A stretch of 20,446 bases of DNA. It comes from a virus. Positions 2,325 to 20,446 of this stretch are shown here, in pieces. Both the position numbers and the translations under genes were made by a program. The notes below the pieces were generated by a model that saw only the letters and a program-made list of their open reading frames with translations, did no database searches and had not been told where the DNA came from. Where the stretch lies: positions 1 to 20,446 of the IMG/VR virus record IMGVR_UViG_3300019761_000016; one strand, written 5' to 3'. Within the stretch, counting starts at the first letter, position 1, and each line of letters opens with the position of its first letter.

Positions 2325-2377
2325 TTAATACTACCATAAGTTATAACAAGATAAAATGGTAAAAATAAAGGATATAT

Positions 2378-3751: not shown

Positions 3752-3752
3752 T

Positions 3753-4283: not shown

Positions 4284-4284
4284 C

Positions 4285-5181: not shown

Positions 5182-5202
5182 CCACTCATGAAAGGATAAG
5201 AT

Positions 5203-5697: not shown

Positions 5698-5699
5698 TT

Positions 5700-5756
5700 A
5701 TGATAAATAATTACATAGTCGTGACGTGTGTTCCAAAGGTCGTACACCAAGTATGA
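5700..5756 (+). CDS. Possible 18-codon leader ORF coupled to the PAS gene
   Basis: An ATG two bases after the holin stop opens an 18-codon frame (M-I-N-N-Y-I-V-V-T-C-V-P...). AAAGG at about 5686-5690 is well placed for initiation. Its TGA (5754-5756) overlaps the ATG of the PAS gene (5753) in an ATGA arrangement, as in translational coupling. Without this leader the PAS gene has only a weak, distant ribosome binding site (AAAGG about 14 bases upstream). It could be a coupling or attenuation leader, or simply chance. Its translation is not proven. Confidence 0.35.
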   Translation: MINNYIVVTCVPKVVHQV

Positions 5757-6424: not shown

Positions 6425-6430
6425 ATACGT

Positions 6431-6820
6431 ATGGGAATGGATGAAATGGTTGTAAGCCAAATAAACTTACGAATTGATGATGTACATAACAGACAAGATA
6501 ATGCTGATGCCTTAATTGAGAAGATACGAGAAGAAAATGCTGACTTCAATAGTAAGATAGTTGCAGCAATGAACGACCAAGCTGTTGCGTTCAGTGACAT
6601 TAAGACAAAGCAGACAATTTACGTATCAATTGCTGTATTCGTAATAACATTAGCACTAAACTTTGGTTTGGATGCAGTGAAAAGCTTCAGTGAACCGGAG
6701 AAGAAAAAGTACTACAATGAGCGAGTTGAACAATCGGATGCAGCAAAAAGACTTCAAAATGAAGTAAACATACTAACAGAAAAACTCAATGAAGTTCTGT
6801 TAGCTAAACACAAAGGATAA
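6431..6820 (+). CDS. One-TM coiled-coil protein, spanin- or antiholin-like position
   Basis: A 129-residue protein with a single clear membrane segment at about residues 62-81, flanked by helical charged regions: 10-60 (with R-I-D-D-V-H-N-R-Q-D-N) and 90-125 (heptad-like, L-Q-N-E-V-N-I-L-T-E-K-L). AAGGA around 6417-6421 favours the first of three closely spaced ATGs. The location between holin and endolysin and the C-terminal coiled coil would suit an i-spanin-like or regulatory lysis protein. Typical i-spanins, however, have the membrane anchor at the very N-terminus, and no o-spanin lipoprotein was found nearby. It might also be the membrane partner of the adjacent PAS protein. Function is uncertain. 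Confidence 0.5.
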   Translation: MGMDEMVVSQINLRIDDVHNRQDNADALIEKIREENADFNSKIVAAMNDQAVAFSDIKTKQTIYVSIAVFVITLALNFGLDAVKSFSEPEKKKYYNERVEQSDAAKRLQNEVNILTEKLNEVLLAKHKG

Positions 6821-6822
6821 GA

Positions 6823-7173
6823 ATGAAATATTTTAAAAGATTAGAGTTTGCATGTAAGTGTAATTGCGGGTTTGATACGGTTGACTACGAATTAGCAGAA
6901 GTACTAGACGATGTTAGAGAACACTTCGGTAAGCCAGTAACAATAACAAGTGGATGTAGATGTGATGCACATAATGCAAAGGTTGGTGGAGCTAAGAACT
7001 CAGTACACAAGACAGGACAAGCTGCCGACTTCAGAGTAAAAGATGTGCATGCTGATGATGTTGCTATGTACCTACACAACAAGTACCCAAATAAGTATGG
7101 GATTGGTAGATATGTTGGCAGAACACATGTCGACACTAAAAGCGGTGTACCACGAAGATGGGATAAACGGTAA
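6823..7173 (+). CDS. Endolysin, peptidase M15 family (D-Ala-D-Ala carboxypeptidase-like)
   Basis: A 116-residue protein with the compact M15_3 layout. It has F-A-C-K-C-N-C-G at the N-terminus, V-D-Y-E-L near 20-24, H-F-G-K-P-V-T-I-T-S-G-C-R-C near 34-47, and S-V-H-K-T-G-Q-A-A-D (60-69) supplying the zinc ligands His62 and Asp69. Y-G-I-G-R-Y near 92-97 is followed by T-H-V-D with His102 as third ligand and Asp104 alongside. The family cleaves peptide bonds in the peptidoglycan stem or cross-bridge. There is no signal peptide, so export would depend on the holin. The start lies two bases after the preceding stop, with AAAGGATAAG ahead of it. This is a confident call. Confidence 0.88.
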   Translation: MKYFKRLEFACKCNCGFDTVDYELAEVLDDVREHFGKPVTITSGCRCDAHNAKVGGAKNSVHKTGQAADFRVKDVHADDVAMYLHNKYPNKYGIGRYVGRTHVDTKSGVPRRWDKR

Positions 7174-7202
7174 GCTACAATTAATAAATAGTAAGCTATA
7201 AT
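7171..7202 (+). promoter_or_regulatory. Tandem 11-bp repeat with a -10-like TATAAT
   Basis: TAAGCTACAAT (7171-7181, beginning in the endolysin stop codon) recurs as TAAGCTATAAT (7192-7202) with one mismatch and a 21-bp period, two helical turns. The second copy ends in a perfect TATAAT (7197-7202), and no good -35 box is seen. Sigma-70 promoters in Campylobacterota often lack a conserved -35, so this may be a promoter or operator for the portal and head operon. Confidence 0.35.
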
Positions 7203-7220
7203 CGAGAAGATAACAAATGG

Positions 7221-9284
7221 ATGGTACAGATGGAAAGACCTAAAATAAAAGACATACTAAGCAAGTTCAAGAAGGATTACACTAATAGTAAGACGCAGCA
7301 CGACACGCAGATGAATAAGATACAAGACTACAGACGTGTGTACAATGCTGACCTGTACGGTAATGAAGAGGAAGGAAAGTCAAAGATTGTAAGTAAGGAC
7401 TCAAGACGTCAGTCGGAGTGGTTATACGCAAGCTTGATGGCGCCCTTCATGGATCAGGACATAATCAAGAGTAAACCAATAACATGGGAAGATAAGGCAA
7501 TTGCCAGACAGACTGAGTTGGTAATCAATACACAATTCACTAGACGATTCCCAAGATACAACTTCCTTCAGAAAGCAATAAAAATATACGACAGAGATGG
7601 TACGGTTGCTGTACAATGTGGCTGGGAATACAAAGGTAAGAAGATCCAGGTTGAGCAGGCTATCGTGATGGTAGATGAAACAACTGGCGAAGAGTACTTG
7701 GGCGGGATTGAAACAGTTACACAAGAAGTAACAAAAGTAAATAACCCGACAGCAGTAGTTAGACGAAATGAAGATGTGTTTATTGACCCTACATGTGAGG
7801 ATGATATGGATAGATGTCAGTTCGTCGTGGTAAGGTATAAATCAAATCTGAGTGGACTTAAACAAGATGGTAGATACAAGAACTTAGATAGAATCAAAAA
7901 GCACGCTGATGACGCTGATCCACAAAGTGATGAGGATTATGAAGAACAGGATGAGTCATCATTCAAGTTCGAGGACGACCCAAGAAAAGAGTTGCTGGTA
8001 TACGAGTACTGGGGTAACTATGATTTAGACGGTGATGGGATTGCTGAACCAATCGTATGTACTTGGGTAAATGACACAGTAATCAGACTACAAGGTAATC
8101 CATACCCAGACAAACAAATACCATTCCTATTCACATCAGCTAATAGTGTACCATTCGAAATGTACGGTGAGGCAAATGCTGCGTTAATTGCTGATAGTCA
8201 ACAAATCAAAACTGCTGTGTTCAGAGGTATGATTAACAACATGGCTCAGTCGAATAATGGGCAGATAATCACTAAGAAAGGCGCACTAGACACACGTAAC
8301 AAGAAACGTATGGAAGCTGGTAAGCACTTCGAAGTAAACACATCAATTGCTGATATACAACACGGTTCGTTCAACCAAATGCCAGGCACTGCGTTCGACA
8401 TGCTGAATGTAGCAGATAGAGACATTGAGTCTATAACTGGTGTTATGGGAATGAATGAAAAAGGACTAAGTGGTGGAATTGGTGGTAGTGCCAAAGGTGC
8501 TGGTGGAGTACTTGATTCAATCAGTACAAGAAGACTAAACACAGTAAGAAACCTCGCAGAGAACTTGATTAAGCCATTAGTTAGAAAATGGATTAGTTAC
8601 AACGCTGAGTTCATGTCACCTGAAGAAGTAACAAGAATAACAAATGAAGAGTATGTACAGCCAAGTACAGATGATGTTGGCTCGTCAATCGACATAGAGA
8701 TTGAGGTAAGCACAGTAGAAGATAACGCACTAAAAGCCGAAAAGCTTGCGTTTATGCTACAAACACTTGGACCGTCAATGGAGCCAGACTTACTAGCAGA
8801 GATGACAGCAGATTACTATGAGTTAGCAAAAATGCCAACAGAAGCTAAGAGAATGAGGGACAGAGCAGACCAACTGAGAGAACAGATGGCTAATCCAGAC
8901 CCAATGATCGAAATGATGAAGCAAGAAGAATATAGAGCAGCTAAGTTAGCAAATGACAAAATAGAAGCTGAGATAAGGCAAATGAAAGCAAGTGGTGAAG
9001 AAGATATAGCAGATAAAGCTGAAAAAAATTCAAAAGCGAAATTACTAGATGCTCAACGCTACAAGTTACTAAAAGAGGCTAAGCTACTTGACGAGAAGAT
9101 TGACAATGAAGCCCTTACCTACCTTAAAAATGACAATGGGGTTAGTCACTTAGAGGCGCTTGAGTTAGAAGATAGAAAAGCTGCGGGTAAGAAAGAGATA
9201 GAACAAATGAAAGCTAGAGTGAACTTGATTCAGATGAGATATCAAGCTCAGCAAGGTGATAAAAATATAGGAGTGGTAGAATAA
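7221..9284 (+). CDS. Portal protein (N4-like podovirus type)
   Basis: A 687-residue protein of the size expected for podovirus portals. It would form the dodecameric ring at the head vertex through which DNA is packaged and ejected. Visible features include the N-terminal helical region with S-E-W-L-Y-A-S-L-M-A-P-F near 65-76, a central segment with F-I-D-P-T-C-E-D-D-M-D-R-C-Q-F, and an acidic loop near 230-255. I-P-F-L-F-T-S-A-N-S-V-P-F-E-M-Y-G-E is typical of the portal core, and I-T-G-V-M-G-M-N-E-K-G-L leads into a Gly-rich turn. The C-terminal about 120 residues are a long charged helix rich in Met, Lys and Glu. The start at 7221 has GAGAAG upstream; a second in-frame ATG at 7230 is possible. 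It ends in a TAATG overlap with the next gene. Confidence 0.82.
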   Translation: MVQMERPKIKDILSKFKKDYTNSKTQHDTQMNKIQDYRRVYNADLYGNEEEGKSKIVSKDSRRQSEWLYASLMAPFMDQDIIKSKPITWEDKAIARQTELVINTQFTRRFPRYNFLQKAIKIYDRDGTVAVQCGWEYKGKKIQVEQAIVMVDETTGEEYLGGIETVTQEVTKVNNPTAVVRRNEDVFIDPTCEDDMDRCQFVVVRYKSNLSGLKQDGRYKNLDRIKKHADDADPQSDEDYEEQDESSFKFEDDPRKELLVYEYWGNYDLDGDGIAEPIVCTWVNDTVIRLQGNPYPDKQIPFLFTSANSVPFEMYGEANAALIADSQQIKTAVFRGMINNMAQSNNGQIITKKGALDTRNKKRMEAGKHFEVNTSIADIQHGSFNQMPGTAFDMLNVADRDIESITGVMGMNEKGLSGGIGGSAKGAGGVLDSISTRRLNTVRNLAENLIKPLVRKWISYNAEFMSPEEVTRITNEEYVQPSTDDVGSSIDIEIEVSTVEDNALKAEKLAFMLQTLGPSMEPDLLAEMTADYYELAKMPTEAKRMRDRADQLREQMANPDPMIEMMKQEEYRAAKLANDKIEAEIRQMKASGEEDIADKAEKNSKAKLLDAQRYKLLKEAKLLDEKIDNEALTYLKNDNGVSHLEALELEDRKAAGKKEIEQMKARVNLIQMRYQAQQGDKNIGVVE

Positions 9285-9655
9285 TGGCTAATGATTGGAT
9301 GATAGGACAAGGATTTGAGAGTACGAGAGCAGTAGACACAGAAGGTGCTGCTGAACAAGAGTATTTCGACAGACTCGACCAAAGACAAAAAGAAACTGGT
9401 GCAATAAACGGAAGTAAGCTGTACGACCTAGATAATGGTACTGGAATCAGTGAGAAGTTGAGTAATGCTGAGTTAGGTAAACAAGCAAAGCAATCAATGA
9501 GAGATCAACAAGTAGCTGGACAAGTTGCATCAGCAAAGGACCAGGAGATTGGTGCTATGTATGGTAGACTAAAAGACATAATTGAGAACACACAAATGGA
9601 GAATGAAGCACTTAAGAGTGTGATTAATCCACAAAGTTTAGCCTTCCAAGGTTAG
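9284..9655 (+). CDS. Small head-module protein, hypothetical
   Basis: A 123-residue hydrophilic, mostly helical protein, translationally coupled to the portal by a TAATG overlap. It has no membrane segment, Cys or recognised motif. The C-terminal half (around G-A-M-Y-G-R-L-K-D-I-I-E-N) is predicted helical and could be a short coiled coil. Its place between portal and scaffold matches small head-assembly genes of N4-like phages, but I do not recognise the family. Confidence 0.55.
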   Translation: MANDWMIGQGFESTRAVDTEGAAEQEYFDRLDQRQKETGAINGSKLYDLDNGTGISEKLSNAELGKQAKQSMRDQQVAGQVASAKDQEIGAMYGRLKDIIENTQMENEALKSVINPQSLAFQG

Positions 9656-9711
9656 GTTAAGCTAGTGTGTAGTAAAATTAGAGCAATAAAAGACACAACA
9701 AGGGAGTACAT

Positions 9712-9954
9712 ATGGCAAATGGATTAGCAGGAGCTGGAGCACCAGTGAATCAGCAAGGATTACAAGCTGTAGAAGAAGTTAAGGCAATGCTTATGCAAGG
9801 AGCTACACCAGAAGAATTAATTGGTATGGGTATCCCAGAAGATGTGATCATGTTGGCAATACAAGAGCTAGAAGCTGAATTAGCACAACAACCACAGGCA
9901 CAGATTGCGTCACAACCACCAAGAGCTGGATTAGCAGCACAAGGTATGGCGTAA
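9712..9954 (+). CDS. Small Ala/Gln-rich head-module protein, hypothetical
   Basis: An 80-residue protein with AGGGAG at 9701-9706 before its ATG. Residues about 18-58 form a compact helical unit (E-E-V-K-A-M-L-M-Q-G-A-T-P-E-E-L and I-P-E-D-V-I-M-L-A-I-Q-E-L) resembling a three-helix or UBA-like fold; the ends are flexible and rich in Gly, Ala, Gln and Pro. Proteins with a similar 'G-x-x-P-E-E-L-x-x-x-G-I-P' unit are common next to portals of podoviruses. Its function is unknown. Confidence 0.55.
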   Translation: MANGLAGAGAPVNQQGLQAVEEVKAMLMQGATPEELIGMGIPEDVIMLAIQELEAELAQQPQAQIASQPPRAGLAAQGMA

Positions 9955-10010
9955 GTCCATAAGTAATGACTAAAAACTTGACTAATAAATAAACAACAGA
10001 AGGACTTGCA

Positions 10011-10286
10011 ATGAGTGCAAATACCCAAGAATCTGATTTAGAAATTAGAAAAAGAGAAATAGAGTTGGGTCAGGCATTAGCCAGACTGAAAACAAATCCA
10101 GACTTCCAGTTAGTAATCGTACAAGAGTACATGATGAAAACGTTACTAGAAGATTCAGGAGACTTAATCGATATGAACCCTGCATTGAGACAACAGACAA
10201 TGGAAGAGATCATGAGTGTTAAGTACTTACAGAGAAAGCTAGAAGTTATGCAAACTACTGCTGATAATGCGGGAGAAGATGAATAA
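10011..10286 (+). CDS. Small helical head-module protein, hypothetical
   Basis: A 91-residue protein with AAGGAC ahead of the ATG. It is helical and charged, with L-K-T-N-P-D-F-Q-L-V-I near 27-37 and M-N-P-A-L-R-Q-Q near 60-67. I recall this pattern from small proteins found beside portal and scaffold genes in other podoviruses. The stop overlaps the start of the scaffold gene (TAATG), so it is probably made in proportion to the scaffold. A head-assembly role is inferred from position only. Confidence 0.55.
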   Translation: MSANTQESDLEIRKREIELGQALARLKTNPDFQLVIVQEYMMKTLLEDSGDLIDMNPALRQQTMEEIMSVKYLQRKLEVMQTTADNAGEDE

Positions 10287-11497
10287 TGGATGAGTTAAAC
10301 AACATGACAGACGAAGAGTTTGAAGCTAAGATGAACAGTGGTGAGTTCGATGAACAACTAACTGAAACATCAAGTGAAGAACAAGAGCAAGTGGAAACAA
10401 CTGAGACAGCTGAAGATACTACGGAACAACCTATTACGGATTCCAGTGATATTTCTGATGATGAAAATACAGATGACGAAACTAAAGAAGATCCGAAAGA
10501 AGATGATAAAGTGGATGCCGATCCAGACGAGTCAACAGAAGACGGGAAATCAACTGAAGAAGAGACTGAAGTAAAAGACTCAAAAGATGACCTACTCGCA
10601 GAGTATTTAAACTCTACTAGCACAATTAAGGCTATTGGTAAAGAGTTTGCGTTTACAAATAAAGAGAAGCTTGAATCATTTGACAAAGTGTACAAACAAG
10701 CGATGGACTATACACGTAAGACACAAGCAGTTGCCAAACATAGAAAAAGGATTAGTGCTATGGAAGAATTGGGCATGACGGATGAACAATTCAATACAAT
10801 GATTGATGTAGCAAAAGGTAATAAAGATGCGATAACGTCGGTAATCAAACAAGCAGGCATAGATGCACTTGATATTGATACTGAACAAGAGCTGAACTAC
10901 ACACCTAACCATCACGGTAAAAGTGATAAAGAACTAGAGATTGATGATGCATTCGGTGCAATCAAAGGTACGCCAACTGGTGATAGAACAACTAACGTAC
11001 TAGGTGCGGAATGGGATGATAGATCTAGGGACCAAATCGTTGAAGGGTTAACACTACCAAATGGTGCGAAGATGGGAACTCAAGAAGTGATTGAAAACCT
11101 ACACTACGACATGGAAAATGGGATATACGATGAAGTTGCTCCAGAAATGCTTAAGTTAAAGCAATTAGACGGTGCTAAGAAATCAGACCTAGATTACTAC
11201 GTAGAAGCAGGTATACAAAGACTTGAACGAATGGCTCAAGCAAAGGTCGCAGCTGAGCAAGCAGAGAAACTTGAGGCAGTTAGATTGCAGGCAGAAGCTG
11301 ACGCTAAGGCGAAGGTAATTGCAGACGCAAAAGCAGCACAAGTGGCTACAGAGCAAGCTAAGATTGCGGCAGAGAAGAAAAAGGCAGCAGCAGTAACGCA
11401 AGGAGCTGGTGGAACTACTAATGGAGTAGACTACTTAGATATGGATAACATGTCAGATGAAGAGTTTATGAAGTTTATGGATAAACAAATAGGATAA
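10286..11497 (+). CDS. Capsid scaffolding protein
   Basis: A 403-residue protein immediately upstream of the major capsid gene, the usual position of scaffolds. The N-terminal 100 residues are extremely acidic (runs of Glu, Asp, Thr and Ser), and the centre is a mixed helical region. The C-terminal 110 residues form a long Ala/Lys/Glu/Gln helix typical of scaffold coiled coils, ending in a short M-D-N-M-S-D-E-E-F-M-K-F-M-D-K-Q hook that may bind capsid subunits. The same D-E-E-F pattern occurs at the N-terminus (M-T-D-E-E-F-E-A-K-M), which is curious. It would guide procapsid assembly and then leave. No protease motif is seen. Confidence 0.75.
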   Translation: MDELNNMTDEEFEAKMNSGEFDEQLTETSSEEQEQVETTETAEDTTEQPITDSSDISDDENTDDETKEDPKEDDKVDADPDESTEDGKSTEEETEVKDSKDDLLAEYLNSTSTIKAIGKEFAFTNKEKLESFDKVYKQAMDYTRKTQAVAKHRKRISAMEELGMTDEQFNTMIDVAKGNKDAITSVIKQAGIDALDIDTEQELNYTPNHHGKSDKELEIDDAFGAIKGTPTGDRTTNVLGAEWDDRSRDQIVEGLTLPNGAKMGTQEVIENLHYDMENGIYDEVAPEMLKLKQLDGAKKSDLDYYVEAGIQRLERMAQAKVAAEQAEKLEAVRLQAEADAKAKVIADAKAAQVATEQAKIAAEKKKAAAVTQGAGGTTNGVDYLDMDNMSDEEFMKFMDKQIG

Positions 11498-11502
11498 CAA
11501 AC

Positions 11503-12744
11503 ATGGGATATAATACAGGAAAAACAGGTGGAGAATCTACAATAGATAACTCAGCAGGTAACGTACAACTTAACCAACATTACTACAACAAGAAAGCGAT
11601 TATCGAATCAAAAGATATGATGTACCTTGGTCAAATGTCAGGTTCAATGTCACAACCTAAACACATGGGTAAAGAAGTAGTTAAACACAGATACATTCCG
11701 TTATTAGACGACGAAAATGCAGGTGGTGCAGGATTAGGGCTTGATAGTGCTGGTGTAGCATACGCAAATGGTAACTTATACGGTTCAAGTAGAGGTACTG
11801 GTGTAATTTCAGGTAAACTACCAGAATTGTCAGAAGATGCTGAAAGAGTGAACAAAGTTTCTTTCTCAAGAAAAGAAGTTAGAGGTAATATTGTTAATAG
11901 AGGATTCTTCTTCGAGTGGACAAAAGACGAAGTGAACTTCGATTCAGACCCTAAGTGGAAAGAGCACGTAACAAGAGAAGCAGTAAAAGGTGCTACACAA
12001 ATTAACGAAGACGTACTTGCTATTGAGTTAATTAACGGTGCTGGTGTTAATATGTTCGCAGGTGATGCTACAACATTAGCTACAATTGATGCTACTTCAG
12101 TTCCAACATTGAAAGATTTATACGCTTTAGACACAGAGTTAGATAATAACAAATGTGCAAAAGACACTAAAATCATCAAAGGTTCAAGATTAGTTGATAC
12201 TAAAACAGTTGCGGCAGCTAGATACATCTTCATTACTCCAGACCAAAAAATGGATTACATGACAATCGAAGCATTAGATTCAACAGCTACTAACCCTAAA
12301 ATGGCGTTCGTGCCAGTAGAACAGTACGCAGATGCAGACAAAGACGGTAAGTACAGAAATGCAATTCACGGTGAGATCGGTAAAGTTGGTCCATTCAGAA
12401 TCGTAGTTAACCCTAAAATGGTTAAATATTCAGATGCAGCTGGTGCGGCAGTTGGTGCGGCATGGACATCAAATGCAACTAATGATGCGTTCAGAAATGA
12501 TGGTACTAAGTTCGAAGCATACGCTTCATTAATCGTTGGTTCAGAATGTTTCACACACATCGGATTCGAATACGGTGCTGGTACAAAAGGTAAGTTCAAC
12601 GTAGTTACTAAAACTCCAGAAGAGTTAAGAACTAAAGAGAACCCGTACGCTAAAACAGGTATGACTGTAATCGAGTTCTGGAATGGGGTTCTGGTTGATA
12701 GACCTGATCACTTAGCAGTATACTCAACAGCTTCTAAATACTAA
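11503..12744 (+). CDS. Major capsid protein, N4-gp56 family
   Basis: A 413-residue protein matching the N4-gp56 major capsid family, HK97 fold. It has an N-terminal arm with Y-Y-N-K-K-A-I, then Y-L-G-Q-M-S-G and Q-P-K-H-M-G-K-E-V-V-K-H-R-Y-I-P-L-L-D-D near 40-72. A central region carries E-V-R-G-N-I-V-N-R-G-F-F-F-E-W-T, and K-V-G-P-F-R-I-V-V-N-P and a Gly-rich A-Y-A-S-L-I-V-G form the C-terminal core. Codon choice is more biased (TTC, AAC, GGT, GTT) than in the neighbours, as expected for the most abundant virion protein. It follows the scaffold after five bases, and two hairpins lie at its 3' end. This family anchors the assignment of the phage as N4-like, although it also occurs outside Schitoviridae. 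Confidence 0.88.
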   Translation: MGYNTGKTGGESTIDNSAGNVQLNQHYYNKKAIIESKDMMYLGQMSGSMSQPKHMGKEVVKHRYIPLLDDENAGGAGLGLDSAGVAYANGNLYGSSRGTGVISGKLPELSEDAERVNKVSFSRKEVRGNIVNRGFFFEWTKDEVNFDSDPKWKEHVTREAVKGATQINEDVLAIELINGAGVNMFAGDATTLATIDATSVPTLKDLYALDTELDNNKCAKDTKIIKGSRLVDTKTVAAARYIFITPDQKMDYMTIEALDSTATNPKMAFVPVEQYADADKDGKYRNAIHGEIGKVGPFRIVVNPKMVKYSDAAGAAVGAAWTSNATNDAFRNDGTKFEAYASLIVGSECFTHIGFEYGAGTKGKFNVVTKTPEELRTKENPYAKTGMTVIEFWNGVLVDRPDHLAVYSTASKY

Positions 12745-12753
12745 TTAGAAGCT
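12729..12753 (+). terminator. Hairpin spanning the capsid stop codon
   Basis: A perfect 9-bp inverted repeat, AGCTTCTAA at 12729-12737 and TTAGAAGCT at 12745-12753, with a 7-base loop containing the TAA stop (12742-12744). It is A/T-rich with no U-tract. It may protect the 3' end of the capsid message or act together with the stronger hairpin that follows. Function is inferred. Confidence 0.4.
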
Positions 12754-12758
12754 AGGTG

Positions 12759-12780
12759 CTGACAGGGTTCGCCCTGTTGG
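12759..12780 (+). terminator. Strong hairpin downstream of the capsid gene
   Basis: CTGACAGGG (12759-12767) pairs with CCCTGTTGG (12772-12780) around a TTCG loop. This gives a 9-bp stem, six pairs perfect Watson-Crick, plus two G-U pairs and a closing C-G. No run of T follows, so it is more likely a partial terminator or an RNA stabiliser that lets capsid mRNA exceed downstream genes. Confidence 0.5.
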
Positions 12781-12838
12781 TTAACAAACGTCTGGTATCA
12801 CCGATGACAATAAAAATAAGATAAAACAGGAAAACAAA

Positions 12839-13360
12839 ATGGCAACAGAAAGAGAAGAACTAATAGCGAAAGCTGGCGAGATGGGATTAGAGTTCAAGAA
12901 GAACATGAGTACAGTAGATTTGCAATTACTAGTAGATGAAGCAGAACAAGAAGCAGCTGATAAAGCGATTGAAGAAAAAGCAAGTAAAGCTGAAACAGCT
13001 TCAGTAGAGGTTAGTGAAAAGATTGTAGCAGAAAAGAACAAAGCTAGTGGTATGAGATCAAGTACTGAAATGGTTAAAGTAATAGTTACTGCATTAGACC
13101 CAAGAATGAGAGAGATCCCTTCTGATATGTTTACACATATGGGTAAATTTGGTACTAAGAAACAAGTAGTTAAGTTCGGTAAAGAGCAATTAGTGTTCAA
13201 GGTAATAACAGATATGTTAGCTGAAAAGAAATCACTACAGCAAGTTAAAAGAACAAGCTCAAAAGGTAGAGAAATTACTACATATCAAATGTCCCCAGCA
13301 TTCATGATTCAAGAAATTCCGTTAACAGCAGAAGAACTAGCCGAAATACAAGGTAAGTAA
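12839..13360 (+). CDS. Capsid-adjacent head protein
   Basis: A 173-residue protein preceded by AGGAAAA. Residues 1-60 are helical and acidic, with a short fold resembling a SAP/LEM-like helix pair (E-L-I-A-K-A-G-E-M-G-L near 7-17). Residues about 78-165 are beta-rich, with V-I-V-T-A-L-D-P-R-M near 81-90 and the C-terminal P-A-F-M-I-Q-E-I-P-L-T-A-E-E-L. I recall this general layout (V-I-V-T-x-x-x-P start and a final I-x-x-x-P-L-T-x-E-E-L) in genes next to N4-gp56-type capsid genes. It is likely a head or head-neck protein, function unproven. Confidence 0.6.
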   Translation: MATEREELIAKAGEMGLEFKKNMSTVDLQLLVDEAEQEAADKAIEEKASKAETASVEVSEKIVAEKNKASGMRSSTEMVKVIVTALDPRMREIPSDMFTHMGKFGTKKQVVKFGKEQLVFKVITDMLAEKKSLQQVKRTSSKGREITTYQMSPAFMIQEIPLTAEELAEIQGK

Positions 13361-13365
13361 TTAGA

Positions 13366-13392
13366 TTCAGCTCATCAAATTGGTGGGTTGAA
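13366..13392 (+). other. Intergenic RNA hairpin
   Basis: An 11-pair stem with four G-U pairs (13366-13376 with 13382-13392) around the loop AAATT, located between two head genes. It has no U-tract, and the following gene starts 21 bases later with a strong AAGGAG. It is probably an mRNA processing or stability element rather than a terminator. Confidence 0.35.
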
Positions 13393-13413
13393 GTGTGATT
13401 ACAAGGAGACTAC

Positions 13414-13809
13414 ATGGGTACATCAATACTAAACGGTAAAAGTAAAAAGTTCGGAAAGATTGGTATAGCCAAAGCTAACACAATAGTTATTGACGTAGAT
13501 AGTAAATACGAAGACGATAGACTAAGATTTCTCTCAATGGCCACTTCGCTTGGTGTTAACTTCACAGGCACGGCAGTATCAGCAAACAACACAAATGATA
13601 GACTGGATACGCTTGAGACCGATACAGGTACAATTAATACAGAACTTGCTATACTAAACAATAAAATGGATGCAATAGCAATAGCACTTGAAGTGACGTT
13701 CAATCCAGATGGTACATTAGACACTGAGGCTTATACAGCACATACACATACGTATGTAGATGATAATGGTACTACAACAACTAATAAAACAACACAAGGA
13801 ATAGATTAA
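13414..13809 (+). CDS. Putative virion structural protein with HTHTY motif
   Basis: A 131-residue protein with a strong AAGGAG before the ATG. Residues 30-60 are mixed. Residues about 65-92 (N-D-R-L-D-T-L-E-T-D... L-N-N-K-M-D-A-I-A) look like a short coiled coil, suggesting a trimer. The C-terminus has A-H-T-H-T-Y-V-D-D followed by a Thr/Asn tail, reminiscent of beta trimer motifs in phage fibres or spikes. It could be a head fibre or decoration protein. It overlaps the next gene by one base (TAATG). Confidence 0.5.
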   Translation: MGTSILNGKSKKFGKIGIAKANTIVIDVDSKYEDDRLRFLSMATSLGVNFTGTAVSANNTNDRLDTLETDTGTINTELAILNNKMDAIAIALEVTFNPDGTLDTEAYTAHTHTYVDDNGTTTTNKTTQGID

Positions 13810-14333
13810 TGGCATTTACAGAAGACTATTTAGTAAAATATACAAACCTAATGGCGGCAGCAACAGCTGATGGCAGTCCGTATGACTTAACAAAAGCATT
13901 CGTACAGAATGAGTTCAATAACTTCAACATTACTGAGAAGGAAAAAGCTGAGTTACTTACTAACTTCATAGCAAACATAACAACTAGTATTACAACAGGG
14001 GCTATGCAAACAGCACTAGCATTAGCTGATAAAGAAGGTAAATACCAACTAGAGGTGGATAACATCGCTAAACAAGGTGGTATACTAGACTCACAGATTG
14101 CCAAAATGGTTGCAGATACTGCATACGTTGAGACACAAGAAGAGAAGTTAATCGAGCAAGTTGAGCACAATAAATTAATTAAAGCAATGGATAGTATGGG
14201 TGATATGATTGGTACAGTTGGAGCAGGAGGGTTAAAACCAACAGCAACAATGTGGGCAACGTACTTCAACCTAAACGCAGCATTAACAGGTGAGGCAGCT
14301 CCGTTAAATCCAGACTTATCACCTGCGGCATAG
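13809..14333 (+). CDS. Putative helical virion protein
   Basis: A 174-residue protein coupled to the preceding gene by TAATG. It is largely helical: I-T-T-S-I-T-T-G-A-M-Q-T-A-L near 56-69, a long Glu/Lys/Gln helix (around 70-125), then a Gly/Ala-rich tail. I recall a similar arrangement (T-x-x-M-Q-T-A-L then coiled helix) in structural proteins located after the capsid gene in N4-like phages. It is the last gene before the acyl cassette. Its function is unknown. Confidence 0.5.
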   Translation: MAFTEDYLVKYTNLMAAATADGSPYDLTKAFVQNEFNNFNITEKEKAELLTNFIANITTSITTGAMQTALALADKEGKYQLEVDNIAKQGGILDSQIAKMVADTAYVETQEEKLIEQVEHNKLIKAMDSMGDMIGTVGAGGLKPTATMWATYFNLNAALTGEAAPLNPDLSPAA

Positions 14334-14342
14334 GTGGTTAGT

Positions 14343-14582
14343 ATGACTGAAGAACAATTCCTAAGTCAGATAAATGAGTTCATCGAAGAACAGGATGGAC
14401 TTGAAATACTGGATATAGACGACTTGCTAATAAATAGTGAAATGGACTCGTTCTCGTACGCATTCTTCTGGGCCTACTTCGAGTCCGAGGTAGTAGAACT
14501 TGGCAATGAGTACGTTAATGGTATAGACTACGAAACATACACAATTAGAGACTTGTATAGAGAGTACCATGAACGTAGTTAA
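14343..14582 (+). CDS. Acyl carrier protein-like protein
   Basis: A 79-residue acidic, helical protein of the size of acyl carrier proteins. After helix I (residues 1-16) and an Asp-rich loop, L-L-I-N-S-E-M-D-S-F-S (28-38) matches the ACP G-x-D-S-L-type site, with Ser36 as candidate 4'-phosphopantetheine attachment residue. Helix II follows (39-52), and Y-T-I-R-D-L-Y-R-E (66-74) resembles the T-V-x-D-L start of ACP helix IV. I chose the ATG at 14343 over a GTG at 14334 because AGGTGG (14332-14337) is then properly spaced. It overlaps the ketosynthase gene by 14 bases, which supports a functional pairing. The Gly usually before the Asp is replaced by Met, so phosphopantetheinylation needs proof. 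Confidence 0.7.
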   Translation: MTEEQFLSQINEFIEEQDGLEILDIDDLLINSEMDSFSYAFFWAYFESEVVELGNEYVNGIDYETYTIRDLYREYHERS

Positions 14583-15435
14583 TTATGTTTACGTACTGCC
14601 AGACACAATAAGTGAAGATGGTAAGGCTATGTACATAGGATCAACATTAGAGAAGCGTGATAAAACGTTTATGAACACATACAATAGTCGGACATATAAA
14701 GACAAGGTAAACAGTATCAAACCAACTGGTAGAACTGCTGTGTTGTACGTAATTGGTCCAAGTGAACACCATAGTTGCTCTAGGGATTTCACAGATACAG
14801 CACCAATACCAAAAGGAGTAATGCCAGTACAAAGTCAAGCTGGGTTCATAGCAAGTAAAGTAGCTGCTCGATACGGTGCTGACTACTTGAGTATATGTGC
14901 CAATACCTGTGGGGCTAGTATGCACGCACTACAGGAAGCTGAGATGCTACTAAACAGCAATAAGTTCGATGATGTGATTGTGTATGCCGAAGACTGGACT
15001 GATCCAACACAAAGACTGCTGTTCGAGAAGATGGGGATAACACTAACTTGTAGTGATGGGTTTGCTATATTACACTTACAAAGAGGTGAACAAATCAGTA
15101 CAGTGAATTGGGTGTACCATGCAGACAAAAATCCGTTCTTCGTAAGTAAAGAAGGATATATGAAGGCTATGAAACCATTTGCCGAAGAGCAGATAAAAGC
15201 AGTGAAAACACATGGTACACAGACACCAAACAACACTGAGGCTGAGTATACTGCAATCGAAGAAATGTACGGTGATGTTGAGCTGATTGAGTACAAGAAA
15301 GAAATAGGTCACACACAAGGAGTTAGCACAGCAATAGAACTGTGTATGCTCCTGGATAGAGAAGAGCCAGGCAAGTACTTGGTAAATGCTAGTGGACTGG
15401 GGAACTTCTACGGAAGTTGTACAATAGAGGTATAA
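14569..15435 (+). CDS. Compact beta-ketoacyl-ACP synthase (thiolase fold)
   Basis: A 288-residue protein with the core of beta-ketoacyl-ACP synthases (KAS I/II). A-N-T-C-G-A-S (111-117) supplies the nucleophile Cys114; the following helix A-L-Q-E-A-E-M-L-L and the strand V-I-V-Y-A-E-D-W match the family. C-S-D-G-F-A-I-L-H-L (161-170) matches the S-D-G-A motif. T-H-G-T-Q-T-P-N-N-T-E-A-E (214-226) supplies His215. K-K-E-I-G-H-T-Q-G (243-251) supplies Lys244 and His248. N-A-S-G-L-G-N-F-Y-G-S (273-283) matches the C-terminal Gly loop. The family condenses acyl chains with malonyl-ACP. The protein is about 120 residues shorter than typical KAS; the N-terminal region and cap loops are reduced, so substrate or activity may differ. 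It lies directly behind the ACP-like gene. Confidence 0.82.
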   Translation: MNVVNYVYVLPDTISEDGKAMYIGSTLEKRDKTFMNTYNSRTYKDKVNSIKPTGRTAVLYVIGPSEHHSCSRDFTDTAPIPKGVMPVQSQAGFIASKVAARYGADYLSICANTCGASMHALQEAEMLLNSNKFDDVIVYAEDWTDPTQRLLFEKMGITLTCSDGFAILHLQRGEQISTVNWVYHADKNPFFVSKEGYMKAMKPFAEEQIKAVKTHGTQTPNNTEAEYTAIEEMYGDVELIEYKKEIGHTQGVSTAIELCMLLDREEPGKYLVNASGLGNFYGSCTIEV

Positions 15436-15436
15436 T

Positions 15437-15979
15437 ATGGTAAATACAATTGCACACAATAACATAGAACGAATAAAGTCACTACCGACAATTGAAGAGA
15501 TTGAGAAGTTGGTAAAACCATTGATAGAACAAAAGGCCAAGCCTGAGTTCGAGCCAACTGGTAATGATGAATACGAGCTGATGAGGATGGGTGCAAAAGA
15601 CACAGTAAAAGTATTAAAATACTTGAAAGATACTGGTGTTGAGATGGAATTACCAACTAGGACTGAGATGAAAAATTATGTGGCTCTTGGCTATGGTGCA
15701 ATAATTAGACATAAGAAAACAAGAAAGTACGCTGGGGTTGCATTAACGTTCGAAACAGAAGGCTATAACGTGTTTGCGTTCTTCCATGTGCAAGAAGAGT
15801 TGAGACGTAAGCCAGTAGTTGGTAGTATGTTCAAAGCAATAATAAAATCACTAAATAAGGAGAAACCAATGCTGATAGAATCAAGAGATATACACACGTT
15901 CAAAAACTGTGTAGTTCCGTCAGAGCTTGGGGAGAACCTATACGAGTGGAAGAAGGGTTGGTCAAAATGGGCGGGGTAG
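15437..15979 (+). CDS. GNAT-like acyltransferase
   Basis: A 180-residue protein starting two bases after the ketosynthase stop. Residues about 80-160 resemble a GNAT N-acyltransferase fold: Y-V-A-L-G-Y-G-A-I-I, strands R-K-Y-A-G-V-A-L-T-F and V-F-A-F-F-H-V-Q-E-E-L (112-122), then R-R-K-P-V-V-G-S-M-F (123-132) in place of the R/Q-x-x-G-x-G/A acyl-CoA loop, followed by a helix and I-E-S-R-D-I-H-T-F. The first Gly of the motif is Pro or Val here, so the identification is moderate. T7 gp13, encoded just before its internal core proteins, is a known acetyltransferase-like virion protein, so position fits. Because an ACP and a ketosynthase precede it, it might use acyl-ACP, as HlyC-type toxin acyltransferases do. 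That is inference. Confidence 0.5.
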   Translation: MVNTIAHNNIERIKSLPTIEEIEKLVKPLIEQKAKPEFEPTGNDEYELMRMGAKDTVKVLKYLKDTGVEMELPTRTEMKNYVALGYGAIIRHKKTRKYAGVALTFETEGYNVFAFFHVQEELRRKPVVGSMFKAIIKSLNKEKPMLIESRDIHTFKNCVVPSELGENLYEWKKGWSKWAG

Positions 15980-17109
15980 CTAAAAAGGTAGGCTCCGCAC
16001 TTGAGAAGGTTGGTGATTTAGTAGTAGCTGAGATAAAGATGTCTCTCCAGTTGAATGTTATAGCCCCTGCTAAGTTTATTGGTAGTGTTGTTAGCGGAGA
16101 TAGCTGGTCAGGTGCATTTGAGGAATTCGGTTCGGATGTTGTTACCGCTCATGGTGACTTTCTACAACAGGAGTACTTAAGCTTGTATAAACCTCTTGGA
16201 TTAGATGACAGGAGTTGGTTCGGTAAAATAGTAAAGGATTTTTTCTATGATGATGCGTACAGCACTGCTGCCATTGGGGTAATTGTAGCAGCACTAGCTC
16301 TAGCTTACTTCTCTGCTGGAACGATGTCAGATTGGTCTGCTGGTGCTATTGCAGGTGCCAGTGCATGGCTCGGTGGAGCAGCTTATGTAGCTGCTGCGTC
16401 AATGATAATCATAACAGAGATAGTTGTTGGTCTTGGTATCTCATTAATAATAGGTGGTGTAATAAATGGAGCACTGTCGCACTTGATGAACCCAAAAACA
16501 ATTCAGTTTGCTATGCAACAATTGATACAGGCGCAAGAGCAAGAAGCTAGGCTACGGTATCAGAACCTAATAGATGTAGCGGATGGCACGGTGTTTGAAA
16601 AGATGGCTGGTGGAGTTATATACAACGAAACCTACTCAGGTGGTGACTTGTATGGATATGACCAAAAGAACTCACTTGCAGTAAGTGTTGGTGGTGAGTT
16701 TGGGTTAAGTGAGGGAAATAAATTAATTAATCACGTAGATGCCGATCAAGCTGGAGGAGGGCTATTCGAAAACAAATTCAACTTGAATATTGTAAACACA
16801 GATGTGAGTGAAAGCAGTGGAGGAATGCCTCCACAGGAAGCAATAAGAATGAGAAACCTACAAAACTATAATAAGCTAACTAAGCAGTATAATACCAAGA
16901 CAAAGACATACAATGATAAAGTTGCTCAGTACAAAAGTATAGCAAATGCTTACAACGATTTGCCCTCCGCTATGAAAACTAAAGAGAGCTATGAAAGTAC
17001 AATGAAGCAGCTAAGTGTAATTGAAGCTGGCTTAGGTGGAATGGAAAAAGAGCTAACAGATATACGGAAATCAATGGAAAATGTGTGGAAGAAGCCATGG
17101 GAAAAATAG
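15967..17109 (+). CDS. Membrane-active internal virion protein (putative ejection protein)
   Basis: A 380-residue protein. I chose the ATG at 15967 (AAGGG about nine bases upstream) over an in-frame GTG at 15946; it overlaps the acyltransferase gene by 13 bases. Residues about 101-118, 124-147 and 148-170 are Gly/Ala/Ile-rich membrane segments, some with glycine-zipper spacing, separated by short polar turns. Residues 175-205 are a Gln-rich amphipathic helix and the C-terminal 110 residues form a long coiled coil with many Tyr, Asn and Lys. There is no signal peptide. The pattern of hydrophobic core plus coiled coil fits proteins ejected with phage DNA that form a channel in the envelope. The stop precedes a gene for another internal protein. 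It is the closest candidate target for the adjacent acyl cassette. Confidence 0.6.
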   Translation: MGGVAKKVGSALEKVGDLVVAEIKMSLQLNVIAPAKFIGSVVSGDSWSGAFEEFGSDVVTAHGDFLQQEYLSLYKPLGLDDRSWFGKIVKDFFYDDAYSTAAIGVIVAALALAYFSAGTMSDWSAGAIAGASAWLGGAAYVAAASMIIITEIVVGLGISLIIGGVINGALSHLMNPKTIQFAMQQLIQAQEQEARLRYQNLIDVADGTVFEKMAGGVIYNETYSGGDLYGYDQKNSLAVSVGGEFGLSEGNKLINHVDADQAGGGLFENKFNLNIVNTDVSESSGGMPPQEAIRMRNLQNYNKLTKQYNTKTKTYNDKVAQYKSIANAYNDLPSAMKTKESYESTMKQLSVIEAGLGGMEKELTDIRKSMENVWKKPWEK

Positions 17110-17175
17110 CCCCAAAGCTGAAATTAAGTGAATTAGTAGTAAGATAAAAACAAAAACCAATACAGGAGAATAGAT

Positions 17176-17523
17176 ATGTCAGGATGGATACAAGCAGCCG
17201 GATCAGTAATAGGTGGTGGGTTACAAGCCTATGGTGGAGTAAAGAGTGCTAAAATGATGGCTGATCAACAGTCAAAGATGAATCAGTTAGCACGAGACCA
17301 ATTCAATTACGCAAAAGAGTTAGCCGGTAAAGCAGATATAGCTAAGGAAAACACACAAAACGAGATGGAGATGGGGTTAGCTAACAGCTTGTATGGTAAC
17401 AAGAAGCCTGCTGCTCCGATACCTGGACAAACAACAGTACAAACAGGGTTAGCTGGTGCGGCTGGTATACCACAAGCACAAAACACGCAACAAAATCCGT
17501 TTGCAATACCACAAGTAGGATAA
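17176..17523 (+). CDS. Small internal virion protein (T7 gp14-like style)
   Basis: A 115-residue protein with AGGAG upstream of the ATG. The N-terminus (W-I-Q-A-A-G-S-V-I-G-G-G-L-Q-A-Y-G-G at 4-21) is a glycine-zipper amphipathic or membrane helix followed by a Met/Gln/Lys helical stretch, the form seen in small internal core or ejection proteins of podoviruses. The C-terminal 45 residues are flexible, rich in Pro, Gln, Ala and Gly. It probably belongs to the internal core ejected with the genome. It lies four bases ahead of the next structural gene. Confidence 0.6.
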   Translation: MSGWIQAAGSVIGGGLQAYGGVKSAKMMADQQSKMNQLARDQFNYAKELAGKADIAKENTQNEMEMGLANSLYGNKKPAAPIPGQTTVQTGLAGAAGIPQAQNTQQNPFAIPQVG

Positions 17524-17527
17524 CAGC

Positions 17528-18883
17528 ATGGCAAAAGGTTGGTATGATAACAGTGCAGAAGCAAATGCTTACTTGAGTGGTGCTAATAGAGCAACAGCGT
17601 CAGCGCAACAGGCAGCAATTGCCGGTGCAGATGCAACTCGTGGTGTATTCAATACACTTGGTAATACAGTGATAAAAGGTGTTGAATTAGCAGAACAAAG
17701 AGAACAACGGAACAAAGCTGAGGCTAAAGACAAGTTGAACTCGGAGTACCTAAAAACAGTAATTGCTGGCGGGGACGTTAGTGATAAGAAGTTCGCTGGA
17801 GTTGATGCTGGTGTACTTGCTAAGGGTGTGACGTTGCAGAACTCAATAAACACAAACACAAGAGCTGAAAATAAAGCAGAACAAGATAAGTTACTTGGGG
17901 ATGCATTGGTACAAGCAAATCAGGATAAAACGATTACTGGTACAGAGAAAAGAGTAACGAGACAAGGCAATGAGGCAGAAGTCGAACTTGCTAAAAACCT
18001 GCGTAATCGAGTTATTGATAAAAATACAAAAAGGTTACAACAACAAGAAGAAGGCTCTACAAAATATGCTGAACTGTTCGATAAATACAGTAATCAAAAA
18101 GTTGGTGCTGCTCCTAGGGTTCCTGGTACACAGTACACTAAAAATACCGATGGTAGCTATATAGAAGCAGATTCAGTATTTGGTAGATGGTTAGGTAAAA
18201 AACAACCAAGTGAACAAATGTATACTCCAGAACAGGCACATACACTTGCACTGAGAGAATCAGGGCTAGGTGGAGTTCGTGGTACATTAGAAGTGCCAAC
18301 AGTACCAAAACTAGTTGAGACAGTTACTAAGCAAGTACCAGTTACACGTAATATGACACAAACAGAGTGGTTAAAGAAGTCAGTAGACTCTATAATGAAT
18401 AGAACAGACTTGACTGGTAGCACTAAATTAGCAGCAAAGAAAGCTCTTGAAAAAGAAGTTAAAGGGCCTACATTCGATCAGCTGTTCAAGGTTAAAAAGA
18501 TGCAAAAAGAAACACAAGATGACCACAGAGTCGGTACAAATTTAGCTAAAACATTGAACATTCAGATACCAAAGGGGTTAACAGGTACTGCTCTACTGGA
18601 TTACGTAAAAGGCACTAAACAATATGCCAACCGAGGGGATGCGTTCAAGACACCAAAGAAATATGGGGCTGGGCCAAAAACGCTACAAGCGTACGATAGT
18701 GGGTTAGGCACAATTGACGAAAAAGACCAAGCTAAAATAGCAAAAGCAGCAAAAGATGTTAAGATGAGCGACGCTGATTTGGCAAGTATAATCACAACAT
18801 TCAATACTCAAGATTGGACCCCTCGGTTCAGTGGAGAGGTTACTAAAGATGTAGTAAAATACATAAAAGATAACGCTAAATAA
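17528..18883 (+). CDS. Putative internal virion protein, 451 residues
   Basis: A 451-residue hydrophilic, helical protein. The N-terminus (W-Y-D-N-S-A-E-A-N-A-Y-L and R-A-T-A-S-A-Q-Q-A-A) followed by a charged helix rich in Glu, Lys and Gln resembles internal core proteins of podoviruses. The centre includes V-P-G-T-Q-Y-T-K-N near 195-203 and a T-K-Q-V-P-V-T repeat; the C-terminus is Lys/Asp-rich. No enzymatic motif is recognised. It stands between the small gp14-like protein and the nuclease-headed protein, so it most likely forms part of the ejected core. Confidence 0.55.
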   Translation: MAKGWYDNSAEANAYLSGANRATASAQQAAIAGADATRGVFNTLGNTVIKGVELAEQREQRNKAEAKDKLNSEYLKTVIAGGDVSDKKFAGVDAGVLAKGVTLQNSINTNTRAENKAEQDKLLGDALVQANQDKTITGTEKRVTRQGNEAEVELAKNLRNRVIDKNTKRLQQQEEGSTKYAELFDKYSNQKVGAAPRVPGTQYTKNTDGSYIEADSVFGRWLGKKQPSEQMYTPEQAHTLALRESGLGGVRGTLEVPTVPKLVETVTKQVPVTRNMTQTEWLKKSVDSIMNRTDLTGSTKLAAKKALEKEVKGPTFDQLFKVKKMQKETQDDHRVGTNLAKTLNIQIPKGLTGTALLDYVKGTKQYANRGDAFKTPKKYGAGPKTLQAYDSGLGTIDEKDQAKIAKAAKDVKMSDADLASIITTFNTQDWTPRFSGEVTKDVVKYIKDNAK

Positions 18884-18939
18884 AACCATAAGACAAATTG
18901 TGCTACACTCAGTAAAATAAAAACTGAAGGTGACACAAT

Positions 18940-19931
18940 ATGCCAACTCAAAAAGAATTACTAGATAGTGCGTTCGCAGAACCAACTACACAAACAAATA
19001 AATACAACACAGATACATACATATACGATGCTGATACCGTATACCAAGACGGACAAGGATATAGAATAGCTGGAATTGATGCACCAGAAATGCCAAAAGC
19101 TGCACTAAAAGCTGATAGACTGAGCAAAGCAAGAGAAAGTAAACTTGGTAGACACGTAAGTAAAGCAACAGCTGGAGAAGCCGCTAAATTAGAGGCTGAG
19201 TTCAGTACACTGGATTTCAGTGGAATTGATGGGGGCTTCCAAGAAACACACTTCGACGATACAAAACAACAACCAGTATATCAGAATACACCAGAAGCAT
19301 CGACAGTTGGGGTGCATGGTAGAGACGTGATAGAGAATAAGGCATACCAGAATAAAATGGTATCCGATGGGTATGCAATACCTGCATTCGATAATCAAAC
19401 ACCAGAAGCACAAGAACTGATGCTACAAGCAAAAGAGCAAGGCAAAGGACTATGGGCTGACCCAGAGTACGCTGCAGAAATGGAATCAGTTGCTAGTAAA
19501 CGTGGCACAGAAACAGTAAGACCAGTAGAAGATTACAACACGCTAAGAGGAGTTGGTAGTGCTTCGTTCAATGTAGGGGTAAAAGTAGGCTCACTTGTTG
19601 GTGAGGGGATTGAGTCACTTGGACAACTGATTGGGGTTGAGGATGTAGAGAAAAGTGGTACAGCAATACAACAAGCTGCTACAGAGTTCCTACAAAGTGG
19701 GTTTGCTGATAAGATAACTGGGTACAATGCAGTAAACGTGCAAGAACTGAGTAAAGAGATAGAAGACACAATAGAAACAGATGGATATATGTCGGCACTT
19801 GGTAAAGCTGTAACGGATGTAAGATCACTTGAAGTGCTTGCAGGGAGCTTACCTGAAATGGTTGCACTAGCTGCAAGTGTTGGTACAATGGCCGTAGCTA
19901 ACGTAAATAATAACATTAACATAGCAGAATC
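18940..19931 (+). CDS. Internal virion protein with N-terminal thermonuclease-like domain, 3'-truncated
   Basis: About 330 phage-encoded residues remain; GAAGGTGA precedes the ATG. Residues 24-52 match the staphylococcal nuclease (TNase) opening: Y-D-A-D-T-V (29-34) and Y-R-I-A-G-I-D-A-P-E (41-50), giving Asp32, Arg42, Asp47 and Glu50 equivalents of the Ca2+ and catalytic site. After an inserted acidic linker, H-G-R-D-V (126-130, Arg128) and V-S-D-G-Y-A (141-146), then K-G-L-W-A (169-173), match the later TNase strands. A helical region with Gly-rich amphipathic segments (203-230) follows. In N4-like phages this position holds large ejected proteins, so the native gene was probably much longer. 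The frame reads on to 20181 only by chance through bacterial sequence; the phage part ends within about 19920-19945. Confidence 0.65.
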
Positions 19932-19945
19932 GAAATTAAAGAGAA
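19920..19945. other. Phage-bacterial chromosome junction (breakpoint zone)
   Basis: Left of this zone the codon style is phage-like and continues the internal virion protein. To the right, from about 19935, a different frame encodes the bacterial flavoprotein C-terminus. The exact base cannot be placed, because A-rich sequence (AAATTAAAG) fits both. No att core, tRNA or integrase accompanies it. Confidence 0.7.
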
Positions 19946-20408
19946 AATTAACAAAATTCTTAGTATCAAAGGTAAGAAAACAGTTGATGAAATTCATAAA
20001 GAACTTGGTCTTATCATGTGGGAAAATGTTGGTATGGCTCGTTCTTCAGAATCTCTTAAAAAGGCTTCAGAGCTTATCAAAGGGGTTAGAAAAGAGTTCT
20101 GGTCAAATGTATTTGTTCCTGGTACAGCAGATGATTTCAATCAAGAGCTTGAAAAAGCAATTCGTTTGGCTGACTTCATAGAATTAGGTGCACTTATGGC
20201 ACGTGATGGTCTAAACCGTAACGAGTCTTGTGGTGGTCACTTCCGTTTAGAATACCAAACTCCAGAAGGAGAAGCTATGCGTAATGATGAAGATTATAAA
20301 TACGTTAGTATTTGGGAATATAAAGGTGAAGGTGTTGAACCTGCTATGTCTAAAGAAGAATTAGTATTTGAAAATATCAAAGTTGCTCAACGTAACTACA
20401 AAGATTAA
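19935..20408 (+). CDS. sdhA: Succinate dehydrogenase / fumarate reductase flavoprotein subunit, C-terminal fragment
   Basis: An in-frame run without stop from 19920 encodes I-N-K-I-L-S-I-K-G-K-K-T-V-D-E-I-H-K-E-L-G-L-I and onward to a TAA at 20406-20408, about 157 residues. It holds the conserved C-terminal motifs of the SdhA/FrdA type found in Campylobacterota and Bacteroidota: W-E-N-V-G-M-A-R, E-L-G-A-L-M-A-R-D-G-L, R-N-E-S-C-G-G-H-F-R, Y-Q-T-P-E-G-E-A-M-R-N-D-E-D and V-S-I-W-E-Y-K-G-E. The FAD domain and most of the active site are absent because the 5' part is replaced by phage DNA. The subunit oxidises succinate or reduces fumarate at the membrane. Codons CGT, CTT and TCT differ sharply from the phage. 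The ATG at 20016 is internal, not a start. It is a broken copy in this contig. Confidence 0.85.
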   Translation: MKEKINKILSIKGKKTVDEIHKELGLIMWENVGMARSSESLKKASELIKGVRKEFWSNVFVPGTADDFNQELEKAIRLADFIELGALMARDGLNRNESCGGHFRLEYQTPEGEAMRNDEDYKYVSIWEYKGEGVEPAMSKEELVFENIKVAQRNYKD

Positions 20409-20420
20409 GGAGTTATAAAA

Positions 20421-20446
20421 ATGGATTTAAAATTAAAAATATGGCG
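20421..20446 (+). CDS. sdhB: Succinate dehydrogenase / fumarate reductase iron-sulfur subunit, first codons only
   Basis: An ATG 12 bases after the flavoprotein stop, with a canonical AAGGAG (20407-20412), opens M-D-L-K-L-K-I-W and runs off the window. The N-terminal M-x-L-x-L-K-I-W fits iron-sulfur subunits of the same complex, and the order flavoprotein then iron-sulfur protein is the usual operon. Only eight codons are visible, so the call rests on context. Confidence 0.6.

Follow-up and report, generated by a model that had tools for sequence, protein, structure and literature searches.

A phage gene cassette that couples an acyl carrier protein and a ketosynthase to an ejection-type virion gene, and its minimal ketosynthase in an N4-like-related sublineage

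The window analyzed here, a 20,446-nt stretch of viral DNA (IMG/VR record IMGVR_UViG_3300019761_000016, positions 1 to 20,446), encodes a minimal ketosynthase (KS) of the FabF type. Its gene forms part of a cassette in which an acyl carrier protein (ACP) gene precedes the KS gene and, in most relatives, a gene for a GNAT-family protein follows it. The cassette lies directly before the gene of a presumed injected protein, a placement suggesting that phages attach a fatty group to the machinery with which they inject DNA. A phage ACP-dependent acylation system for the ejection protein is the best reading of these data, at a probability of about 0.5. A little short of even odds is the fuller proposal that ACP, KS, and GNAT install a custom acyl group, possibly a beta-keto one, on the N terminus of the ejection protein, with the KS reduced to about 285 residues in an N4-like-related sublineage.

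The ketosynthase of the window and its minimal relatives

The KS gene is an intact open reading frame (ORF) of the FabF type, as the original prediction had it; that prediction missed the upstream ACP gene, the downstream third ORF, and the virion gene. The window DNA recurs in a 107,713-bp IMG/VR contig, to which it is identical over bases 1-19954 and from which it differs beyond, and the KS ORF is the same in both. The right end of the window (19955-20446) may be a chimeric junction. An ORF at 20016-20408 looks by eye like the C terminus of a succinate dehydrogenase flavoprotein. Another at 18940-20181, which comes after a 451-amino-acid (aa) ORF and has its 3' end past the junction at 19954, resembles staphylococcal nuclease over part of its length, with a PF00565 match (E 0.002) that falls short of the curated cut-off. 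Judged by its proteins, the virion context of the window is N4-like: in addition to the profile matches in Table 1, the portal protein shares 48% identity with the AD45-P1 (Alteromonas phage) portal, itself noted as N4 gp59-like.

The KS family is identified by matches to Pfam Ketoacyl-synt_C (1.2e-6, over the curated cut-off), NCBIfam TIGR03150 fabF (7.7e-8), and phrog_35856 (9.4e-15), and a profile of the phage KS family retrieves FabF structures from the PDB at 8e-31. The TAC-S-type active-site cysteine of FabF/KAS II is present in the motif NTCGAS, and the HGT histidine and the K-x4-H pair correspond to His215, Lys243, and His248. The original prediction had found Cys114, His215, and His248 in their expected motifs, where they prove invariant in all phage and bacterial KS sequences compared. 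It had named Lys244 as the catalytic lysine; this assignment was rejected, as bacteria have S at position 244 and the other phages A, Q, or P, and the invariant lysine is residue 243, five residues before His248. The C-terminal Gly loop that it described is indeed there, in altered form: the GFGG-type loop with its gatekeeper Phe, seen in the nine bacterial KS, is absent from the window KS and reads GMGN or GLGN across the phage clade, a change from Phe to Leu or Met. Judged by alignment, the four catalytic residues may meet at one site. AlphaFold modeled the window KS with low confidence (pLDDT 57), and the structural neighbors of the model are all KS/thiolase-fold enzymes, including FabH-type ones (TMq about 0.58).

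Table 1 Features of the window and of related loci (coordinates of the window unless a locus is given)
Feature	Coordinates	Strand	Basis or remark
N4 gp59-type portal protein	7221..9284	+	phrog_1216 1.1e-145
Major capsid protein, marks the virion gene module	11503..12744	+	phrog_1357 1.8e-78
Virion-module gene between capsid gene and ACP	13809..14333	+	phrog_34316 4.7e-27, function unknown
ACP, 82 aa, GTG start; putative phosphopantetheine Ser39 in MDSF	14334..14582	+	Profile of relatives
ACP Ser39 codon	14448-14450	+	Motif MDSF
Minimal FabF-type KS, 288 aa	14569..15435	+	Pfam, NCBIfam, PHROG, profile-PDB, tree, alignment
KS Cys114 codon, nucleophile, NTC-G/A-A/S-S	14908..14910	+	98/98 phage, 9/9 bacterial, 6/6 minimal KS
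KS His215 codon, K-T/P-H-G-T	15211..15213	+	98/98 phage, 9/9 bacterial, 6/6 minimal KS
KS Lys243 codon, conserved catalytic lysine	15295..15297	+	98/98 phage, 9/9 bacterial; residue 244 variable
KS His248 codon, G-H	15310..15312	+	98/98 phage, 9/9 bacterial, 6/6 minimal KS
KS Gly loop GLGNFY, in place of bacterial GFGG	15394..15411	+	Alignment, phage vs bacterial KS
Third cassette ORF, 180 aa; proposed acyltransferase	15437..15979	+	Position only
Virion/ejection-type protein starting MGGVAKKVGSALEKVG..., 380 aa, hydrophobic segments; proposed acyl acceptor	15967..17109	+	Position, MGGV start
AcpS, 124 aa	L007 1398-1772; L109 1108-1482		PF01648
ACP + 167-aa ORF before gp53-like gene, no KS	L261 20858-23683; L272 3233-6760		PT11-V19 and R22Y

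At 288 aa, against about 410 aa for FabF/KAS II, the window KS lacks several segments found in its relatives of about 370 aa. The view of it as minimal is borne out by 284- to 290-aa versions in five further phages, and with these and the identical second contig at hand, a frameshift or assembly artefact was dismissed as the source of the short form. Together, the window and the five others (L262 to L266, found via capsid relatives and then with a two-sequence profile) make up six contigs related to N4-like phages. All share the gene order ACP, KS, 158- to 180-aa ORF, virion-type gene. The window KS is only 34 to 38% identical to the other minimal forms, and the Cys, both His, Lys243, and the stretch GLG(G/N)FYGSC are unchanged in 6/6 aligned sequences. 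In two close pairs, dN lies far below dS (0.16 vs 1.33 for L265/L266; 0.22 vs 1.45 for L263/L264). The invariant catalytic set and the low dN/dS argue that the minimal scaffold is real and selected, and the substitution pattern indicates purifying selection on the minimal KS, in line with the earlier proposal of selection for chemistry. No smaller KS scaffold retaining all four catalytic residues was met in this analysis. The reduced size arose within one sublineage and does not define the phage KS. A new acyl-transfer reaction by the window KS, also proposed earlier, is plausible; the better case for acyl transfer is a separate enzyme, the adjoining GNAT predicted from structure in the relatives with a KS of about 370 aa.

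The ACP ORF of the window overlaps the KS start by 14 nt, compared with 4 nt in most ACP/KS gene pairs among the relatives. It matches a profile of 5 relatives from which the window was left out (E 1.4e-4, Z=10000), and reaches only E 0.83 against a broader family profile built without the window. In the Pfam PP-binding search, the window ACP gave no carrier match, and 3/18 family members matched weakly. The family assignment comes from the family profile itself, for which 40/40 PDB matches are ACPs (best 2.3e-4), and from Asp38-Ser39, which is invariant in the 18-row family alignment and in 6 minimal-lineage ACPs. The best match of the minimal-lineage ACP is NodF (E 0.024).

The third ORF of the window occupies the position that the GNAT holds in 84 other loci, which suggests that its product is an acyltransferase. 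Comparison with the GNAT family by hhalign and HMMER found no alignable similarity, and Pfam no match; against the third ORFs of the other minimal-KS phages, the window ORF is likewise not alignable (E ~550). For the third ORF of the minimal lineage as a whole, sequence comparison did not demonstrate GNAT membership, and the window ORF was not retained as a demonstrable GNAT homolog.

Layout and distribution of the cassette

KS scans of IMG/VR gave 157 and then 439 confirmed stretches, of which 80 were kept each time. Across 97 distinct KS genes, an ACP gene lies directly upstream in every case (97/97), and a GNAT-family protein of about 145 residues is encoded directly 3' in 84; typical members of the clade have a KS of about 370 residues. 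The reciprocal, GNAT-first scan (376 stretches, 65 distinct) found a KS next to the GNAT in 63/65 distinct loci, 60 of them with a recognized ACP too. A dedicated phage KS clade with the layout ACP-KS-GNAT is therefore common in IMG/VR. The same cassette is carried by a contig of a Balneolaceae metagenome-assembled genome (MAG).

Phylogenetic analysis places the phage KS in one clade against nine bacterial KS (SH-aLRT 100); the original prediction had suggested a phylogeny to look for just such a clade. The window KS falls on the phage side of the tree, on a long branch whose exact placement is unsure. Contamination by host FabF was rejected, since the phage clade is separate from bacterial FabF. 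FabF-like records named after phages of Listeria, Enterococcus, Staphylococcus, and Pseudomonas are UNVERIFIED and unannotated and served only as bacterial-type outgroups.

The small protein that follows the KS of about 370 aa is predicted with high confidence to be a GNAT acyltransferase. The structure model of this 143- to 156-aa family has a pLDDT of 93, and its top 50 PDB neighbors are all GNATs (best E 1.3e-4).

The cassette stands before an ejection gene in two structural backgrounds, P22-like and N4-like, and occurs there in more than one form. Two loci (L176 and L228) have the GNAT without ACP or KS in the same position before the ejection gene. The cultured Alteromonas phages PT11-V19 and R22Y have no KS; their ACP gene is joined by a third ORF and the gene of the downstream protein. 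The PT11-V19 proteins match those of the minimal lineage at 6e-13 (ACP) and 2e-16 (third ORF). These forms establish that the layout is modular. A GNAT alone, an ACP plus third ORF, or ACP, KS, and GNAT before the first ejection-type gene is the pattern expected if the acyltransferase modifies that protein.

One KS subclade differs in context, with ACP-KS in a replication region behind a helicase-like gene; within the sequence at hand, no GNAT was found beside it. Both records tested from this subclade (2/2) encode their own AcpS (PF01648; E 3e-17 and 7e-17), located 4.3 to 4.6 kb upstream of ACP-KS, which indirectly supports its ACPs as real carrier proteins. Given ACP-KS among replication genes and no GNAT found, the acceptor must differ at least in this subclade. 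In the phages with the ejection context, an AcpS search returned none in the viral records, the sole matches being on other contigs of the MAG that holds locus L154.

The gene after the third ORF of the window likely starts at the ATG at 15967 (product MGGVAKKVG...), and its position and MGGV start are common to other cassettes. The downstream proteins of L262 and L266 are homologous to that of PT11-V19, and the latter has a match in Vibrio phage pVa5, to its N4 gp53-type protein. In pVa5, the annotated genes run capsid, gp55, virion structural protein, gp53, without a cassette. Between the 380-aa protein of the window and the gp53-like proteins of its minimal-KS relatives, no similarity was detectable. 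Position, together with the gp53-type match in the relatives of the minimal lineage, suggests that the downstream protein is ejected.

The residue after the initiator Met of this protein is Ser, Gly, or Ala in 70/71 loci and Pro in one (a count that leaves out the mis-started window entry), and Ser, Gly, or Ala in 61/63 of the GNAT-first set. Three downstream proteins start Met-Pro (L059, L262, and L263). Almost half of the 71 downstream proteins (35/71) have no Lys within their first 40 residues, which argues against a conserved lysine acceptor in the N-terminal region. In one single case, L176 (3995-4426), where the GNAT stands without ACP or KS, the next protein starts Met-Cys-Ser, possibly an altered acceptor. 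Cysteine-rich runs, e.g., CSDCCSCCCSCCC, which are unusual for virion proteins, occur at L002 (13224-16385) in the products of both genes that come after the GNAT.

Proposed acylation of the ejection protein and alternative readings

In the mechanism we propose, the upstream ACP would be converted to its holo form by the host AcpS, or by the phage's own in one subgroup. The KS would then condense an acyl group with a malonyl unit, leaving the phage ACP charged with a dedicated acyl chain, probably a beta-keto one. From there, the GNAT-fold acyltransferase would pass the chain to the virion protein whose gene lies directly downstream. The acceptor site would most likely be the new N terminus, the Ser, Gly, or Ala left after Met removal. 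This site is suggested by the small second residues; the suggestion is weakened by the three Met-Pro starts and by the possibility that the downstream proteins simply inherited M-(S/G/A) from a common ancestor. As acyl acceptor, the ejection protein would gain a lipid anchor, with which it could cross or seal the membranes of the host as the DNA enters. ACP, and then KS, may have been added to an acyltransferase already acting on the ejection protein, supplying it with a special acyl donor.

Whether the KS extends chains bears on the first alternative, in which it would transacylate without elongation, passing a host acyl chain to the phage ACP or the GNAT, with the acylation model otherwise unchanged. 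The residue set is of the decarboxylating type and argues for chain extension: both His and the Lys, tied to decarboxylative condensation, are strictly kept, which is unexpected for transacylation alone. The altered gatekeeper loop (GFGG to GMGN/GLGN across the phage clade) and the loop losses of the minimal form leave room for transacylation, and among the weak NCBIfam matches of the window KS is AmcF, a KS-like acyltransferase subunit (1.1e-5). PT11-V19 and R22Y, moreover, manage with ACP and third ORF alone. On balance, we regard transacylation as a minority possibility, at perhaps one chance in five.

Somewhat less probable is an auxiliary metabolic role, with ACP and KS boosting or redirecting host fatty-acid synthesis or membrane composition and the proximity to virion genes being incidental. 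In its favor, fatty-acid elongation is centered on ACP and FabF, and the ACP-KS pair of one subclade lies in the replication region of phages that encode an AcpS themselves. From a survey of prophages, acpP-fabF-fabG were reported to be auxiliary metabolic genes (PMC8224337). The genes in those prophages, however, follow the bacterial fab operon order and may be host genes. The cassettes as read contain no reductase or dehydratase, and they keep a fixed place before the ejection gene in both P22-like and N4-like backgrounds, with the GNAT between in 84/97. Where the KS is missing, the GNAT or the ACP stays at the same spot.

We also consider it improbable that the cassette makes a small acylated metabolite, a signal or an anti-competitor compound, in the manner of LuxI-type or N-acyl-amino-acid synthases. 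GNAT-fold enzymes that make small molecules from acyl-ACP exist, and the nearest folds of the GNAT model include small-molecule acyltransferases. Against this stands the tight linkage to the ejection gene, which persists where KS or ACP is absent, and the GNAT that precedes gp14 in a T7-like phage too (PMC10142737). Catalytically idle cassette proteins, acting as assembly chaperones or structural parts, are very unlikely. In their favor, T7 gp13, whose gene takes the place of the GNAT gene ahead of gene 14, carries the annotation of an internal virion protein, but the invariant Cys/His/Lys/His set and ACP Ser, dN far below dS, and the AcpS co-encoded in one subgroup all speak for activity.

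Relation to known systems and implications

The cassette is built from known enzyme families. With FabF (KAS II), the window KS shares the Cys-His-Lys-His set and its spacing, matches in its C-terminal half (Pfam, NCBIfam, and profile-PDB), and KS neighbors of its predicted fold. It differs in the missing loops and the GLGN in place of GFGG, as well as in its phage-only clade and its place within a virion gene module.

In the HlyC family of RTX-toxin acyltransferases, a GNAT-fold enzyme takes the acyl chain of an ACP and attaches it to a membrane-active protein whose gene is adjacent. As a comparison of mechanism, they may offer a parallel for acyl-ACP-dependent protein acylation. Unlike in the proposed system, their acceptors are internal lysines, their acyl-ACP comes from the host, and there is no dedicated KS.

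A single annotated phage record, ctpbd312 (MW202545.1), has the order ACP, KS, GNAT-family protein, and MGGV... protein. Its KS is full-length (366 aa) and its gene neighbors are P22-like, in contrast to the window, and the KS alone of its cassette has been given a function. The nearest published observation comes from a T7-like phage (PMC10142737), where a gene with an acetyltransferase (GNAT) fold immediately precedes that of the ejection protein gp14. In T7 itself, gene 13 precedes gene 14, without ACP or KS there. T7 gp13 was rejected as a relative of the GNAT family by sequence, as no similarity between the two was detectable. In the open-licence papers searched, no description of ejection-protein acylation or of a like phage system was found.

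These findings caution against classing viral acpP/fabF genes automatically as auxiliary metabolic genes. They also bear on the question of how short-tailed phages carry their DNA, along with the ejection proteins, past two membranes. A conserved, modular, and widespread ejection-linked cassette makes lipid modification directly testable in this setting, partly in the two cultured Alteromonas phages. If the proposed reading is true, the cassette would represent phage-directed lipidation of the DNA-injection machinery.
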